In this document: piece after piece, positions 50,212 through 62,000 of the stretch
Layout of the letters: each line of letters starts with the position of its first letter
How positions within the stretch are numbered: position 1 is the stretch's first letter
Source: Rhodococcus sp. 105337
Lineage (GTDB): Bacteria > Actinomycetota > Actinomycetes > Mycobacteriales > Mycobacteriaceae
Length of the DNA stretch: 64,000 nucleotides
Direction of reading: 5' to 3'
Assembly (NCBI RefSeq): GCF_012844225.1
Contig: NZ_JABAGQ010000002.1
Location: 372,001 to 436,000, forward strand
Notes under the pieces: model-generated
What the model was told of the DNA's origin: nothing
The model's input: the letters and a program-made list of their open reading frames with translations, nothing else
Database searches by the model: none
Program-made: the position numbers and the translations under genes

Positions 50212-50217
50212 TAGAGT
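50212..50217 (+). promoter_or_regulatory. -10 box of the sulfate-transport leader transcript
   Basis: TAGAGT ends seven bases before GTG 50225, placing the transcript start at the start codon of the cysteine leader peptide. No convincing -35 hexamer is visible, which would fit a promoter needing an activator. Confidence 0.55.
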
Positions 50218-50224
50218 CTGCCGA

Positions 50225-50317
50225 GTGACCGCGACCGCGCTACCTCGAATCCGCCATGAACTGGCGTTGATCGCTGTAGGTATGCCCTCGGTTGCCGATA
50301 TCGACTGTTGTCGCTGA
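50225..50317 (+). CDS. leaderless cysteine leader peptide upstream of subI
   Basis: The 30-codon ORF begins MTATALPRIRHELALIAVGM and ends VADIDCCR before TGA (50315-50317). Tandem Cys codons (TGT TGT, 50306-50311) lie next to the end. It has no Shine-Dalgarno, but it has a -10 box at leaderless spacing. It stands 177 bases before the sulfate-binding protein gene. This matches the design reported in mycobacteria, where leaderless cysteine-containing short ORFs act as cysteine-responsive attenuators of sulfur genes. The proposed logic is that low charged tRNA-Cys stalls the ribosome at the Cys codons and changes folding of the following RNA. Confidence 0.7.
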   Translation: MTATALPRIRHELALIAVGMPSVADIDCCR

Positions 50318-56243: not shown

Positions 56244-56990
56244 TCAGGCGGCGGCGCGAACGGTGGCGCGCCGAACCGCCGCGAGATAACGCTCCGCGAC
56301 GACGTGCCCGACGGCGGCATGCGTGGTGAGGGTCGGGGCGATACGTACGCCGGGATGCGCCTCGACGGCAGCGGCACACGCCCGGTCCCACAAAAGCCCC
56401 GGAGCGAGCATCCAGGGTGCGACCACGAGGGTGCGGCACCCGGACCGGGCCAGCAGTCCCAGCGCCGAGGCGGCAGTCGGCTCGGCAGCCGTGGCGTAGC
56501 ACGGGACGGCCGCCCATGTGGTGCCGTCGGTGACCCGCGGAACGACGCGCGCCGTGGCGGTATTCGCCTCGTCTCGGCGCGAGCCGACGGCACAGAACGC
56601 AACCCCGACGGACGGGTCGTCCAGCGCGACACCCGTCGACGCGATGCTGTCGCGGGCGGCGGCGACGAGGAGCGCGTCGTCGCCGAGAATGTCGGCGCGC
56701 ATCACCTCGAGCGGGGGGGTGCGGGTGCGTGCGTCGGCGAGGATCGCGGGCAGGTCGACGCGGGCGTGGAACGCGCTGCCGAGCAGCAACGGTACGACGA
56801 CCGCGCGGCGGTACCCGTCGGCGGCGACGGCGTCGAGAACCTGCGGTACCGACGGCGTGTTCAGATCGAGGAATGCGAGGCGCACATCCCATTCGGGGTG
56901 CTCTGTCCGCAGCACCGCGAGCGCGGCAGCCACGGCCCGCGCAGAGCGGGGGTCGCGGCTGCCGTGCGCGACGGCGATCAGCGGGATCAT
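56244..56990 (-). CDS. sirohydrochlorin ferrochelatase (CbiX/SirB-like)
   Basis: This 248-residue protein begins IPLIAVAHGSRDPRSARAVA, with the conserved metal-binding histidine. A second half repeats the chelatase fold, including TLVVAPWMLAPGLLWDRA and LTTHAAVGHVVAER. It should insert Fe2+ into sirohydrochlorin to make siroheme, the cofactor of the sulfite reductase encoded in the same operon. A cobalt chelatase role is the alternative. Its ATG overlaps the cysN stop (ATGA), so it is the last gene of the sulfur-reduction operon. Rv2393 occupies a similar place in M. tuberculosis. Confidence 0.85.
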   Translation of the reverse strand: MIPLIAVAHGSRDPRSARAVAAALAVLRTEHPEWDVRLAFLDLNTPSVPQVLDAVAADGYRRAVVVPLLLGSAFHARVDLPAILADARTRTPPLEVMRADILGDDALLVAAARDSIASTGVALDDPSVGVAFCAVGSRRDEANTATARVVPRVTDGTTWAAVPCYATAAEPTAASALGLLARSGCRTLVVAPWMLAPGLLWDRACAAAVEAHPGVRIAPTLTTHAAVGHVVAERYLAAVRRATVRAAA

Positions 56991-58321
56991 GCGGGGACGC
57001 GATCTCCGAGTTCGATGTCCGCGAGGCCGTTGCCCACCAGTCCGGCGGCGAGCGTGTTGCCGCCGGCCGGGTCGATCAGCAGGAAACTGCCGGTACGCCG
57101 GTTGACCTTGTAGTCGTCCGCCGCGATCGGCTCCGCGACACGCACCGTGATACGCGCGATCTCGTTGAGCTCCAAGGACTCCGGGTGATCTTCCGAGGTG
57201 AGGGTCTGCTCGTCGAATCGTTCCTCGAGCGTGCCGACGATCGCCTGGGTGGTGCGAGTGCCGTGCTTGAGGAGCAGACGCGCGCCGGGCCGCAGAGGCT
57301 TCTCGGCGAGCCAGCACACGGTGGCCTCGAACTCCGAGAGCGGTTCGGGTGCATCCCCGGGCGAGGCGAGCAGGTCGCCGCGGGAGATGTCGACGTCGTC
57401 GGTGAGAACGAGAGTGACCGAGCGACCGGCGTGTGCGATGTCGAGTTCACCGTCGGCGGTGTCGATGCGCTGCACCGTGGACCGGACCCCCGAAGGCAGG
57501 ACGACGATCTCGTCGCCGGGCCGGACCGATCCGGCGGCGATCTGACCGGCGTACCCGCGGTAGTCCGGGAACTCCGCGGTACGGGGCCGGATCACGTACT
57601 GGACCGCGAAGCGCAGACCCACCTCGTGCCGTCCGTGCACGTCGGCGTCGACGGGCACCGACTCGAGGTGCTCGATCAGCGTCGGGCCGTCGTAGTAGGG
57701 CGTGTTCTCGCTCCGGATCGCGATGTTGTCGCCGTGCAGCGCCGAGACCGGAATCTCCTGCACGTCGTCGGGAGACCAGCCCAGCGAACCCGTCAGTTCG
57801 TTGAACTCCGCACTGATCCGGCCGAAGACCTCGGCGGGGTCGTCGACGAGGTCGATCTTGTTGACCGCGAGTACCAGCTTCGGCACACCGAGCAGCGCGA
57901 GCACCGCGGCGTGCTTACGGGTCTGAGAGATGACCCCCTTGCGCGCATCGACGAGCAGCACCACGAGCTGGGCGGTCGAGGCGCCGGAGACGGTGTTGCG
58001 GGTGTACTGGACGTGCCCCGGGGTGTCGGCGAGCACGAAGCTGCGCTTCGGGGTCGCGAAGTACCGGTAGGCGACGTCGATGGTGATGCCCTGTTCGCGT
58101 TCGGCACGCAGACCGTCGACGAGCAGCGAGAGGTCCGGGGTGTCGAGGCCTTTGTCGACCGAAGCTCGTGTCACAGCGTCGATCTGATCGGCGAGCACCG
58201 ACTTGGTGTCGTACAGGAGCCGGCCGACGAGGGTGGACTTACCGTCGTCGACGCTGCCCGCGGTGGCGAGGCGCAGCAGTTGCGTCTCGCTCTGCAGGCC
58301 GGGCTCGTGGAGGTCGCTCAT
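56987..58321 (-). CDS. cysN: sulfate adenylyltransferase GTPase subunit
   Basis: CysN is the GTPase that drives ATP sulfurylase. The 444 residues have the P-loop GSVDDGKSTLVGRLLYD (about residues 22-38), AEREQGITIDVAYRYF, DTPGHVQYTRN and NKIDLVDD, then EF-Tu-like beta domains. It ends at GDRVPA without the CysC (APS kinase) domain found fused in mycobacterial CysNC. APS is therefore likely passed directly to the APS reductase CysH rather than to PAPS. It starts two bases after cysD. Confidence 0.94.
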   Translation of the reverse strand: MSDLHEPGLQSETQLLRLATAGSVDDGKSTLVGRLLYDTKSVLADQIDAVTRASVDKGLDTPDLSLLVDGLRAEREQGITIDVAYRYFATPKRSFVLADTPGHVQYTRNTVSGASTAQLVVLLVDARKGVISQTRKHAAVLALLGVPKLVLAVNKIDLVDDPAEVFGRISAEFNELTGSLGWSPDDVQEIPVSALHGDNIAIRSENTPYYDGPTLIEHLESVPVDADVHGRHEVGLRFAVQYVIRPRTAEFPDYRGYAGQIAAGSVRPGDEIVVLPSGVRSTVQRIDTADGELDIAHAGRSVTLVLTDDVDISRGDLLASPGDAPEPLSEFEATVCWLAEKPLRPGARLLLKHGTRTTQAIVGTLEERFDEQTLTSEDHPESLELNEIARITVRVAEPIAADDYKVNRRTGSFLLIDPAGGNTLAAGLVGNGLADIELGDRVPA

Positions 58322-58323
58322 GA

Positions 58324-59268
58324 TCAGAAGTAGCCCTCTCGCTTGCGGTCTTCCATGGCCGCTTCGGAAACACGGTCGTCGCCCCGGGTGGCGCCCCGTT
58401 CGGTCAGCCGCGACGCGGCGACCTCGTCGAGGATGTCTTCGTTGGTGACCGCCTCGGACAGGATCGCGCCGGTCGTCGAGCCGTCACCGACGGTGCGGTA
58501 GCGCACCGAGCGGGTTTCGAGGGTCTCGCCGTCGGCGGGGCCGCCCCAGACGCCGGGCGTCATCCACATGCCGTCGCGCCGGTAGACCGGGCGCTGGTGC
58601 GCGTAGTAGATGCTCGCGAGTTCGACGTCCTCGCGGGCGATGTAGCGCCAGATGTCGAGTTCGGTGAAGTTGCTCAGCGGGAACACCCGGACGTGCTCTC
58701 CGGGGGAGTGGCGGCCGTTGTAGAGGTTCCACAACTCGGGGCGCTGCCGCTTCGGATCCCACTGGCCGAATGCGTTGCGCAGCGAGAAGATCCGCTCCTT
58801 GGCGCGCGAGCGTTCCTCGTCGCGCCGGCCACCGCCGAAGACCGCGTCGAAACGGTTCTCGGTGATCGCGTCGAGCAGCGGGACGGTCTGCAGCGGGTTG
58901 CGGATACCGTCGGGCCGCTCGGTGAGCCGCCCGTCGGCGATGTAGTCCTCGACACTCGCGACGTGCAGACGCAAGTTGTACTTCTCGACGATGTGGTCGC
59001 GGAAGTCGAGAACCTCGGGCAGATTGTGCCCGGTGTCGACGTGCAGCAGCGCGAACGGCAGCGGTGCGGGCCAGAACGCCTTGATCGCCAGGTGCAGCAG
59101 GACGGTGGAGTCCTTGCCGCCGGAGAACAGGATCACCGGCCGCTCGAACTCCCCGGCGACCTCACGGAAGACGTGGATCGCTTCGGACTCGAGTGCGTCG
59201 AGAGTGTCGAACTTGGTGCCGTCCAGCGTGGCGCGGGCAGTGGTGGGAGTCGGATCGGTGAGTGTCAT
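58324..59268 (-). CDS. cysD: sulfate adenylyltransferase small subunit
   Basis: CysD makes adenosine 5'-phosphosulfate from sulfate and ATP together with CysN. The 314-residue PP-loop protein has VILFSGGKDSTVLLHLA (the SGGxDS motif), LLHVDTGHNLPEVLDFRD, the conserved FGGGRRDEERSRAKERIFS and the C-terminal EDRKREGYF. The ATG at 59268 overlaps the stop of cysH; longer in-frame starts lie within cysH and are rejected. Confidence 0.95.
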   Translation of the reverse strand: MTLTDPTPTTARATLDGTKFDTLDALESEAIHVFREVAGEFERPVILFSGGKDSTVLLHLAIKAFWPAPLPFALLHVDTGHNLPEVLDFRDHIVEKYNLRLHVASVEDYIADGRLTERPDGIRNPLQTVPLLDAITENRFDAVFGGGRRDEERSRAKERIFSLRNAFGQWDPKRQRPELWNLYNGRHSPGEHVRVFPLSNFTELDIWRYIAREDVELASIYYAHQRPVYRRDGMWMTPGVWGGPADGETLETRSVRYRTVGDGSTTGAILSEAVTNEDILDEVAASRLTERGATRGDDRVSEAAMEDRKREGYF

Positions 59269-60026
59269 GAGGCGTGCAACCCGCATTCGGTCTTGGCTCG
59301 GCCGGCCCAGCGTCCGCTGCGCGGATCGGCCCCGGGAAGTGGTTTGGAAGTGCACGGGGCACACCCGATGGACGGGTAACCCTCGTCGACGAGCGGGTTG
59401 ACCAGAATTCCGTGCTCGTCGATGTAGTTCTGCATGTCCTCGTCGGACCACGCGGCGATCGGGTTGATCTTCACGAGGCCGAACGCATCGTCGAAGGAGA
59501 TCAGCGGCGCATTCGCGCGAGTGGGTGCCTCCACCCGGCGGATACCGGTGACCCATGCGCGATAGCCCCGGAGGGACTCGGTCAGCGGCACCACTTTGCG
59601 CAGGCGGCAGCACTCGTTGGGATCGCGGGCGAACAGATCCTTGCCGAGCAGTGCGTCCTGCTCGGCGACGGTGGCCGCGGCGCGGGCGTTCACGATATTG
59701 ACGCCGTACACCTGTTCCACGGCGTCGCGGGTCCCGAGGGTCTCGGCGAAGTGGTAGCCGGTGTCGAGGAACAGCACGTCCACGCCGGGGCGCTGCTGCG
59801 CCGCGAGATGGACCAGGACGCCGTCCTGCATGTTGGAGGCGACGATGTATCCGCTGCGTGCGCCCTCGACGGGCGCCCCGAATGTCTCGTCGGTCCACCG
59901 CAGAAGTTCCTGAGTGGACGCGCCTTCCAGTTCTTCCGCACCTCGCGCGGCTATCGCTCGCAGCTCGTCGGCTGTCGCGGTGTCGATCGTCATCTGCCCC
60001 GTCCGCTCGTCGGTTGTCTCGGTCAT
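59265..60026 (-). CDS. cysH: assimilatory adenylylsulfate (APS) reductase
   Basis: CysH reduces APS to sulfite with thioredoxin. The 253-residue protein has the PP-loop-like core (DVLFLDTGYHFAET). It also has the cysteine pairs of the APS-type [4Fe-4S] enzyme, NECCRLRK and GCAPCTSKP, and the C-terminal nucleophile ECGLHAS. Enzymes that use PAPS lack the two Cys pairs, so APS specificity is well supported. It agrees with the absence of an APS kinase domain on cysN. Starting at ATG 60026 (MTETTDERTG), it overlaps the sirA stop. Confidence 0.94.
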   Translation of the reverse strand: MTETTDERTGQMTIDTATADELRAIAARGAEELEGASTQELLRWTDETFGAPVEGARSGYIVASNMQDGVLVHLAAQQRPGVDVLFLDTGYHFAETLGTRDAVEQVYGVNIVNARAAATVAEQDALLGKDLFARDPNECCRLRKVVPLTESLRGYRAWVTGIRRVEAPTRANAPLISFDDAFGLVKINPIAAWSDEDMQNYIDEHGILVNPLVDEGYPSIGCAPCTSKPLPGADPRSGRWAGRAKTECGLHAS

Positions 60027-61741
60027 CGCAGGTCGGCTTCTTCCGCGCGTACGGCCCACTGCGCGAAACGTTCGCCCTCGGTGCGGTGCTTCATGAAATT
60101 GCGCACGACGCGCTCGATGTAGTCACCGAGCTCGTCGCTGGTCACCTTGTGCTGCCGCAGCTTCCGGCCGAATGCGGAGTCCAGGCCGAGGCTGCCGCCG
60201 AGATGGACCTGGAAGCCTTCGACCTGTTTCCCGTCGCCGTCGTCGACGAGCTGGCCTTTGAATCCGATGTCCGCGATCTGCGACCGGCCACAGGAGTTCG
60301 GGCAACCGTTGATGTTGATCGTGATCGGCACGTCGAGGTCGGCGTTGATGTCGGCGAGTCGCTGCTCGAGCTCCGGCGCGAGTGCCTGCGAGCGCTTGCG
60401 GGTCTCGACGAACGACAACTTGCAGAATTCGATTCCGCTGCACGCCAGCAGGTTGCGCCGCCAGTGCGACGGCCGGGCACGCAGCCCGAGCGGCTCGAGT
60501 TCGGCGATCAGCTCCTCGACCTTGTCGTCGGCGACGTCGAGGATCACCAGCTTCTGGTACGGGGTGAACCGGATACGGTCGGAACCGATTCGTTCGGCGG
60601 CGTCCGCGACCTTCGTCAGGACCGTGCCCGACACCCGTCCCGCGATCGGGGAGAAGCCGACGGCGTTGAGGCCGTTGCGAATCTTCTGCACGCCGATGTG
60701 GTCGATCGGCCGGGCCGGTTTCTCGGGCGCGGGACCGTCGATCAGCGGACGCTTCAGGTACTCCTGTTCGAGCACCTCGCGGAACTTCTCGATGCCCCAG
60801 TCCTTGATGAGGAACTTCAGGCGCGCCTTCGCCCGCAGGCGGCGGTAGCCGTAGTCGCGGAAGACGGAGACGACCGCTTCCCACACGTCCGGAACCTCGT
60901 CGCGCGGGATCCAGGCGCCGACGCGCTGGGCGAGCATCGGGTTGGTGGACAGGCCACCGCCCACCCACAGATCGAACCCGGGCCCGTGCTCGGGATGTTC
61001 GACGCCGACGAACGCGACATCGTTGATCTCGTGCACGACGTCCTGCTGACCGGAGATCGCGGTCTTGAACTTGCGCGGCAGGTTGGAGTATTTCGGGTCG
61101 CCGATGTAGCGGCGGACGATCTCGTCGATGGCCGGGGTGCCGTCGATGACCTCGTCGAGGGACTCTCCGGCGAGCGGCGACCCGAGCACGACGCGGGGGC
61201 AGTCGCCGCACGCCTCGGTGGTCTGCAATCCGACCGCTTCGAGACGGCGCCAGATCTCGGGAACGTTCTCGACCTCGATCCAGTGGTACTGCACGTTCTC
61301 GCGGTCGGACAGGTCGGCGGTGTCGCGGGCGAACTCGGTGGAGAGTTCGCCGACGGTGCGCAGTTGCGCGGCGCTGAGCGCGCCTCCGTCGCATCGCACC
61401 CGCATCATGAAGTACTTGGCCTCGAGCAGGTCGAGGTTCTCGTCACCGGTGTACGTACCGTCGTAGCCCTGTTCGCGCTGCGTGTAGAGGCCCCACCAGC
61501 GGAAGCGGCCGCGCAGGTCGGACTTGTCGATGCTGTCGAAGCCCTGGTGCGCGTAGATCTCTTCGATCCGCCGGCGGACGTTGAGAGGGTTGTCGTCCTT
61601 CTTCGTCTGCTCGTTGGCGTTGAGCGGCTCGCGGTAGCCGAGAGCCCACTGGCCTTCGGCGCGAGTCTTGGTGGGCCGCCCCGCACGCCGGGTTGGGGCT
61701 GCCGAACCGTCGGTGGGAGTGGCGTCGGTGGACGACGTCAT
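60023..61741 (-). CDS. sirA: ferredoxin-dependent sulfite reductase
   Basis: SirA (named NirA in M. tuberculosis) reduces sulfite to sulfide using six electrons from ferredoxin, with siroheme and a [4Fe-4S] cluster. The 572-residue protein has the two-fold ferredoxin-like repeat (WWGLYTQREQGYDGTY, FMMRVRCDGG) and the cluster cysteines in LACSGIEFCKLSF and NGCPNSCGRSQ. The N-terminal about 40 residues are a Pro/Thr-rich lead. The ATG at 61741 has CAGGAG eight bases upstream; a longer in-frame start runs through the leader RNA and is rejected. It is the first gene of sirA-cysH-cysD-cysN-chelatase. Confidence 0.94.
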   Translation of the reverse strand: MTSSTDATPTDGSAAPTRRAGRPTKTRAEGQWALGYREPLNANEQTKKDDNPLNVRRRIEEIYAHQGFDSIDKSDLRGRFRWWGLYTQREQGYDGTYTGDENLDLLEAKYFMMRVRCDGGALSAAQLRTVGELSTEFARDTADLSDRENVQYHWIEVENVPEIWRRLEAVGLQTTEACGDCPRVVLGSPLAGESLDEVIDGTPAIDEIVRRYIGDPKYSNLPRKFKTAISGQQDVVHEINDVAFVGVEHPEHGPGFDLWVGGGLSTNPMLAQRVGAWIPRDEVPDVWEAVVSVFRDYGYRRLRAKARLKFLIKDWGIEKFREVLEQEYLKRPLIDGPAPEKPARPIDHIGVQKIRNGLNAVGFSPIAGRVSGTVLTKVADAAERIGSDRIRFTPYQKLVILDVADDKVEELIAELEPLGLRARPSHWRRNLLACSGIEFCKLSFVETRKRSQALAPELEQRLADINADLDVPITININGCPNSCGRSQIADIGFKGQLVDDGDGKQVEGFQVHLGGSLGLDSAFGRKLRQHKVTSDELGDYIERVVRNFMKHRTEGERFAQWAVRAEEADLR

Positions 61742-61748
61742 GCGGGGT

Positions 61749-61786
61749 CTCCTGGAGTGTGCGTTGACGGGCCGAGTGCGCAGGAG
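61749..61786 (-). promoter_or_regulatory. possible anti-Shine-Dalgarno pairing in the sirA leader
   Basis: On the minus strand the sirA ribosome-binding site is CAGGAG (61754-61749), and CTCCTG (61786-61781) lies 26 bases upstream of it. The two are exact complements. Pairing would hide the ribosome-binding site. The pairing strand begins about 66 bases after the end of the poly-cysteine peptide. Confidence 0.5.
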
Positions 61787-61852
61787 GGAGCTGTACCTCG
61801 TTGCGAGCACGCCTCGACCCGGCGGGATCTGGGGATTGCCGGGTGGTGCCGA

Positions 61853-61963
61853 CTACAGACAGTCGGCGCAGAAACAGGCGGCGCAAGGCAGACAGCATGA
61901 CGCACAGACGCGCTTGAGGTCGACGTGGCGGCGAGCCACGAGTCGCACTCCGGGTCCGGTCAT
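61853..61963 (-). CDS. leaderless poly-cysteine leader peptide upstream of sirA
   Basis: The 36-codon ORF starts MTGPGVRLVARRHVDLKRV and its last 17 residues contain seven cysteines (CASCCLPCAACFCADCL), then TAG. The ATG at 61963 has no ribosome-binding site but lies seven bases after CACAAT. Poly-cysteine leaderless short ORFs are known in mycobacteria as cysteine-responsive attenuators of sulfur-assimilation operons. The sirA operon here is the expected target, 111 bases downstream. Two Cys codons would also be met early in the run, so stalling could occur at several places. The metal-binding look of the CxxC pairs is probably a side effect of selection for Cys codons. Confidence 0.8.
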   Translation of the reverse strand: MTGPGVRLVARRHVDLKRVCASCCLPCAACFCADCL

Positions 61964-61970
61964 GTCGCCA

Positions 61971-62000
61971 ATTGTGCCATGTCATCGGCGCGATTCCGAA
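61971..62000 (-). promoter_or_regulatory. promoter of the poly-Cys leader and sirA operon
   Basis: On the minus strand TTCGGA (62000-61995) and CACAAT (61976-61971) are separated by 18 bases. Both are partial matches to consensus, and the -10 spacing to the ATG is that of leaderless transcripts. Confidence 0.45.

Follow-up and report, generated by a model that had tools for sequence, protein, structure and literature searches.

The window, a 64,000-nucleotide stretch of the Rhodococcus sp. 105337 genome, carries on its minus strand a short leader ORF followed by sirA, cysH, cysD and cysN, all genes of cysteine supply, with hemW upstream of the leader in the opposite orientation (Table 1). The sirA product matches PDB 1zj8, there named NirA, with 1059.7 bits. 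The leader encodes a 36-residue peptide, MTGPGVRLVARRHVDLKRVCASCCLPCAACFCADCL, with seven cysteines within residues 20–36. A first-pass annotation had described an ORF with seven cysteines in its final 17 residues at 61853–61963 and gave no strand; it exists as described when read on the minus strand, from 61963 to 61853, while on the plus strand the frame is interrupted by a stop. The 111-base gap claimed ahead of sirA is also found, from the leader stop to the sirA ATG (61741–61739), and covers positions 61742–61852. Among the 273 window ORFs of 20–60 residues, the leader alone contains more than four cysteines per 17 residues. Because the 15,472 ORFs of 30 dinucleotide-Markov shuffled windows never exceed five, the cysteine cluster is not a product of chance. 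A cysteine-responsive leaderless attenuator requires such a cluster of Cys codons, and seven in 17 residues are present here.

Table 1 Features of the leader and the sulfite-reduction operon in the window
Feature	Position	Strand	Remarks
-35-like TCGGAA	61994..61999	minus	17-nt spacer to the -10-like box
-10-like box CACAAT	61971..61976	minus	7 nt ahead of leader ATG; preceded by TGG at 61977-61979
Cys-rich leader ORF, Ms4527A-like	61853..61963	minus	36 codons + TAG, ATG start
Hairpin inside ORF	61916..61951	minus	nt 13-48, codons 5-16, 14 pairs
Hairpin GCCGAC/GUCGGC over ORF end and stop codon	61848..61867	minus	from fold and sequence only
H1	61817..61844	minus	ACCCGGC (61838-61844) with GCCGGGU (61817-61823); directly after leader
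P1	61768..61823	minus	GCCGGGUCGAG (61813-61823) with CUCGGCCCG (61768-61776); encloses P2
P2 hairpin	61779..61805	minus	CGCA..GAGG / CCUC.UGCG, loop UACAGCUC
CAGGAG, Shine-Dalgarno (SD) of sirA	61749..61754	minus	
sirA/nirA, ferredoxin-dependent sulfite (nitrite) reductase	60023..61741	minus	NIR_SIR domains
cysH, (phospho)adenylyl-sulfate reductase	59265..60059	minus	start provisional
cysD, sulfate adenylyltransferase small subunit	58324..59253	minus	start provisional
cysN, sulfate adenylyltransferase large subunit	56987..58321	minus	

The -10 box previously assigned a leaderless spacing does have it, with CACAAT ending 7 nt ahead of the ATG. This spacing is compatible with an mRNA that would begin at the start codon, and it is constant: TGGCA stands 15 or 16 nt ahead of the start codon in 107 of the 109 loci examined, counted by a script that took distances of 14–18 nt only. 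In 94 distinct upstream sequences, TGGCA is followed by C (83) or G (10), then by A (90), A (93) and T (94), and the -35-like element keeps its T, C, G and G columns in 79–86 sequences and its two A columns in 63 and 75. The start codon is ATG in 101 and GTG in 6 of 107 leaders. The box TGGCA[C/G]AAT is near-identical across sirA leaders, yet its C is the first -10 base; four of the five other Cys leaders in the window's genome show, by eye, TANNNT boxes at leaderless spacing. The TGGCA[C/G]AAT box may overlap a regulator site.

One of these other leaders, MTATALPRIRHELALIAVGMPSVADIDCCR, lies within the window (50225–50317, plus strand) before sbp-cysTWA, whose sulfate-binding protein gene begins 176 nt after it. 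It scores 50 bits against NF042937 (Ms4533A), over the cut-off of 31, and TAGAGT (50212–50217) ends 7 nt ahead of its GTG. This leader resembles the sirA leader in its Cys codons and leaderless geometry but differs in sequence, with only two cysteines (CC) near its end. The genome holds four further ORFs that resemble leaders and have cores of the RR..VDLCR type; they precede a rhodanese/sulfurtransferase-like gene (L010 1483–1569, plus), a flavin/NAD reductase-like gene (L012 1486–1560, plus), a Trans_reg_C gene (L009 around 1492–1563, minus) and a gene of uncertain type (L011 1471–1557, plus).

Family relationships of the leader

The leader matches NF042936, the NCBIfam family of Ms4527A Cys-rich leader peptides, over the whole core (positions 1–21 of 21; E 1.6e-11). 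It shares with that family the core RLVARRHVDLKRVC, the leaderless geometry, the Cys-rich end and the site directly upstream of sirA/nirA, here with a gap of 111 nt, but differs in its seven cysteines, its longer tail and its score, which at 43.5 bits (43 in the genome search) falls below the curated cut-off of 45. Judged by sequence and gene order, it occupies the syntenic position of the Ms4527A leader of mycobacteria and is a further member of an already known leader type, formally just under the annotation cut-off. The predicted leader RNA in the window adds the helices H1 and P1 and a degenerate P2, features for which mycobacterial counterparts were sought in a few loci only. The RRHVDL core is also common to a second profile, NF042934 (actinobacterial putative leader peptide cis_reg_atten), which matches with E 1.5e-4 but gives 21.3 bits, under its cut-off of 27; after VDL, the window leader has K, whereas four other leaders of its genome have C. 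NF042935 was rejected as a leader family, being an unrelated protein.

The occurrence in close relatives expected at first pass is borne out by NF042936 matches in all 18 same-genus genomes, none of them above the 45-bit cut-off. Matches extend to 52 of 61 relatives (E 0.01) and, with up to 28 candidates per genome scored, to at least 240 of 301 genomes of the bacterial family (E 0.001), at least 83 of which exceed the cut-off. At least 27 of 31 genera are reached in this family search, in which genera g3, g4, g5 and g8 appear solely among the misses listed. None of the 14 control genomes matched in the genus, relatives or family search. The closest among the named records is Rhodococcus coprophilus (97%), in a comparison from which the window's own record was possibly omitted. 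By tblastn, sirA was located in 106 of 109 leader loci; L028 and L045 lack it at the expected place.

Polycysteine leaderless short ORFs were reportedly established as cysteine-responsive attenuators by Canestrari et al. in 2020, according to papers that cite the work. Later papers credit it for translation attenuation by such ORFs, one of them for regulation generally. The window leader is likewise a leaderless short ORF with Cys codons heading a cysteine-metabolic operon, but it is known here from sequence, and 48 named Nocardia leaders differ from the polycysteine type in carrying just two or three cysteines. The first-pass annotation had presented the Rhodococcus leader as a clear extension of the mycobacterial cases, a claim that gives way to the curated NCBI family, to its reach across at least 240 of 301 family genomes and to the leader before nirA/Msmeg_4527 published in 2015, as given in a figure legend (Fig. 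7C, PMC4633059). Within the open-licence literature, as far as its accessible text goes, we found no description of a Rhodococcus leader beyond that mycobacterial account, and the accessible parts of PMC11133741 do not treat one.

Conservation of the peptide and its codons

The core GVRLVARRHVD[FL]KRVC is nearly invariant in the leaders compared, which were drawn from 109 examined loci. L036, which lies unplaced at a contig end, was excluded from the locus survey and from the conservation counts, and L044 and L045 were kept out of the conservation counts as belonging to other families, with no TGGCA and no sirA in place. Sets based on the sirA start omit L028, L113 and L119, which have no placed sirA start, leaving 104 of 107 loci. 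An extension of the locus set added 17 of 20 candidates (L129, L130 and L144 were left out), and L128 and L146 were kept among the resulting 121 loci despite a doubtful sirA start.

Conservation of the Cys codons across Rhodococcus and Nocardia had been proposed as a check, and it holds for one position and fails for the number. Cys24 is present in 82 of 83 distinct ORFs. Cysteines per leader, in contrast, number two in 40, three in 17, four in 13, five in 19, six in 4 and seven in 14 of 107 leaders, and the 48 named loci from Nocardia carry two (35) or three (13). Since the count varies in this way, the seven-Cys tail is clade-specific, and the sequences compared identify it as a lineage-specific elaboration. 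The conservation of Cys20 is partly a selection effect, because the 80 named loci were chosen by a pattern that includes it; in L037 and L143, which were picked up through the profile, the residue is Asn.

The codon used at Cys24 is more constrained than the residue requires: UGU encodes Cys24 wherever the residue occurs, in 92 of 94 distinct leaders (L041 and L134 lack it). Overall, UGU makes up 199 of 343 Cys codons in the leaders versus 15 of 662 in the sirA frames behind them (Fisher p 4e-95), where many frames are partial and the sequences are related, making p only a guide. The contrast is milder in the window itself, with UGU at 4 of 7 Cys codons in the leader, 1 of 7 in sirA and 3 of 18 in nine sulfur and neighbouring genes pooled; the second Cys leader in the window reads UGU UGU. 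The fixed UGU at Cys24 is possibly due to wobble reading or to a base in an RNA contact.

Two readings would deny the ORF a role as a translated leader acting in cis. In the first, the ORF is untranslated, and selection acts only on the RNA of a structured leader that leaves the frame open. A hairpin does span codons 5–16, and part of the codon conservation therefore acts at the RNA level. In 46 of the 79 prepared sequences, 94.9% of 644 cells of this hairpin are paired, as against at most 58.7% in slid versions, and two-sided changes occur in 16 cells versus 8.3 in shuffles (0 of 500 as high), although they fall in just 3 pairs (96 of 500 shuffles as high). However, residue 11, encoded in the hairpin loop, is arginine in all 83 distinct ORFs although six codons (CGN, AGG, AGA) are in use, and residue 8 is leucine in all 83 with five codons in use; a profile or a peptide pattern had been used to collect these loci, and no ORF was then dropped for absence of the motif. 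The retention of Arg11 across six codons indicates that part of the constraint acts on the peptide. With a Cys content well above chance and the NF042936 profile match, we consider an untranslated ORF extremely unlikely. In the second reading, the peptide acts in trans, for instance as a small metal- or redox-binding protein. The conserved basic core RRHVD[FL]KR, the clustered cysteines and the related cores ahead of other genes in this genome, including sulfur-metabolism genes, would fit such a role, but a cysteine number ranging from two to seven and a tail of free length are unlike a metal site, the ORF is nearly always upstream of sirA, and its family is named as leader peptides. A trans-acting peptide is thus very unlikely. 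We consider it probable instead, on sequence and modelled folds, that the ORF encodes a cysteine-sensing leader peptide, is read from a leaderless transcript and acts in cis to control sirA-cysH-cysD-cysN.

RNA elements between the leader and sirA

The stretch between the leader and sirA contains a small hairpin, P2, that recurs in most loci. Its loop motif CAGCCC is found in 95 of 105 distinct leader–sirA intergenic stretches (16% when shuffled), and in 75 of 105 it is flanked, anywhere in the stretch, by a stem scoring at least 4.5 (0.55% when shuffled). The relaxed motif CAGC[CT][CT] lies 38–66 nt ahead of the sirA start in 97 of 121 loci. A script anchored on this motif collected 58 distinct stem-loops, and since the anchor makes their loops alike by construction, the unbiased figure for the loop is 95 of 105. 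The stems pair well despite their diverse sequences (GAGGA/UCCUC, GUGAG/CUCAC, CGCGA/UCGCG, GGGGA/UCCCC): their mean score is 5.71 versus 3.68 with permuted 3′ arms (maximum 4.40 in 1,000 tries), and 48 of the 58 score at least 4.5, compared with at most 28 after permutation. For 12 of the 58, picked for gap-free alignment of loop and arms, the covariation score is 0.348 versus 0.150 in shuffles (0 of 500 as high). A covariance model built on these 12 (R1) also recognises 36 of 86 other loci, chiefly from Nocardia, with E values of at most 0.03, and in 21 whole genomes, with 150 of thousands of candidates scored per genome, it gave one strong match, the sirA leader of genome G003. The window has a degenerate version: the loop CAGCUC is a one-base variant of CAGCCC, the stem is weak (4+4 bp), and R1 gives no match to it at E 10.

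An outer helix, P1, encloses P2 in the window's genus and in several further clades. In 18 genus sequences, P1 alone is 96.1% paired and P1 with P2 92.8%, as against at most 54.8% in slid versions of the pair; six of the ten P1 pairs never vary within the genus. No clear P1 helix was found in Nocardia. A third helix, H1, is 94.4% paired in the same number of genus sequences (slid versions at most 58.2%), and in L035 and L042 a change from GGG to GGA in H1 is matched by CCC to UCC (L042 is misaligned in the count); in other clades the competitor helix was not clear. The genus leaders L029, L030 and L033 have ~19–25 extra nt between stop and sirA, placed before H1. A search of Rfam with 601 bases of the window returned only a chance match to gntR-DTE far under the gathering threshold, and seven leader loci gave no match. 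As a candidate defined by sequence comparison, the P1/P2 element is absent from the listed RNA families, and it forms, together with the fixed UGU codon, the unexpected part of this leader.

Possible routes from ribosome position to sirA expression

The first-pass reading of the ORF as an attenuator is backed by the family match, synteny, promoter geometry and Cys-codon conservation; the leaderless start, the stalling, the cysteine response and the attenuator switch itself are steps that we infer. Transcription would start at or beside the leader AUG, where 70S ribosomes could load at once. With scarce Cys-tRNA, ribosomes would stall at Cys20–Cys24 or at later Cys codons, and with plentiful Cys-tRNA they would reach the UAG. 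Ribosome position would then decide how the next 111 nt and the sirA SD fold, such that cysteine shortage would lead to higher expression of sirA-cysH-cysD-cysN. The last step would most likely be translational: in the window, codons 21–26 could pair with the sirA SD and start codon, and a ribosome between Cys20 and Cys30 would block this pairing. In folds of the window with the ribosome modelled as a 29–30-nt block, opening the sirA SD costs 2.9–3.0 kcal/mol with the ribosome at Cys20, 23, 24, 27 or 30, compared with 5.6 kcal/mol at the stop and 5.2 without a ribosome; stalls at Cys32 and Cys35 cost 4.3 and 5.7 kcal/mol, the last two cysteines thus being of no help. The mean unpaired probability of the SD is 0.23–0.24 with the ribosome at Cys20 or Cys24 versus 0.01 at the stop. 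The lower cost at Cys20–Cys30 fits cysteine-responsive translation attenuation in the window.

As a family-wide rule, SD release found no support in a fold scan of 92 distinct leaders. The cost with a Cys stall is below that at the stop in 43 of 92 (Wilcoxon p 0.70), and shifts of at least 1 kcal occur in the expected direction in 13 and in the opposite direction in 5. The SD masking seen in the window fold, and not across the family, also sets this leader apart from the polycysteine type. Two candidate pairings were discarded by eye: an anti-SD CUCC in the 3′ arm of P2, which could pair with CAGGAG in many Rhodococcus, Prescottella and Nocardia leaders, is missing in others, and codons 24–25 (UGUCUG) show Leu25 variants without matching changes in the SD.

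The helices P1/P2 and H1 point to another switch, either in place of SD release or alongside it. Trp-type attenuators use mutually exclusive 2:3 and 3:4 helices downstream of a codon-sensing leader, and H1 (CCCGGC/GCCGGG) and P1 (GCCGGGUCGA/UCGRYCCGGU) are likewise mutually exclusive, the 3′ strand of H1 being also the 5′ strand of P1. In a transcriptional version of the switch, with no SD masking, RNA polymerase would be halted at P1, whose end is 26 nt upstream of sirA, either by the helix itself or with the help of Rho; a stalled ribosome would avert this by allowing H1 to form. Both helices are kept in the 18 genus sequences, and full-length folds of L022, L024, L025 and L027 favour mainly H1 with the ribosome at Cys24 (0.95, 0.99, 0.93 and 0.70) and mainly P1 with it at the stop (0.94, 0.91, 0.95 and 1.0), with a partial shift from H1 to P1 in L003 and L026. 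However, 11 of 18 leaders, L026 included, show little or no shift, and L042 and L043 shift in the opposite direction. In folds truncated after P1, a clear switch appears in L022 and L027 only, the window leader staying in H1. A ribosome at the stop reaches just the first H1 bases, as the 5′ arm begins 8–13 nt past the stop in four genus leaders. The covariation of H1 is thin (51 of 500 shuffles reach its score, with one two-sided cell), that of P1 with P2 is reached by 25 of 500 shuffles with six of ten P1 pairs invariant, and no U-tract follows P1 when the sequence is read by eye. The window thus departs from trp-type attenuators in lacking the U-tract and in a mixed dependence of the helices on ribosome position in silico, and we regard transcription attenuation at P1 as rather doubtful.

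Cysteine-responsive attenuation of the sirA operon is very likely. Support is good for a leader that senses cysteine, and SD masking and termination are both candidates for the switch step. Tentatively, the sirA leader of Rhodococcus, Nocardia and their relatives could be a composite attenuator, in which a wobble-read UGU at Cys24 would act as the sensor behind a nascent-peptide core and be joined to an undescribed CAGCCC-loop RNA domain, in several clades inside P1, whose loop would have an RNA, a protein or the ribosome as its partner; the poly-Cys tracts would then be a lineage-specific gain. We hold this proposal possible rather than probable.

These results place a mycobacterial cysteine switch, in detail, in the window's Rhodococcus clade. 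What is kept is a Cys position with its UGU codon, the peptide core and the RNA folds, whereas the Cys count varies. How ribosome position would be read out could be tested directly and cheaply by mutating the CAGCCC-loop element or the fixed UGU codon.
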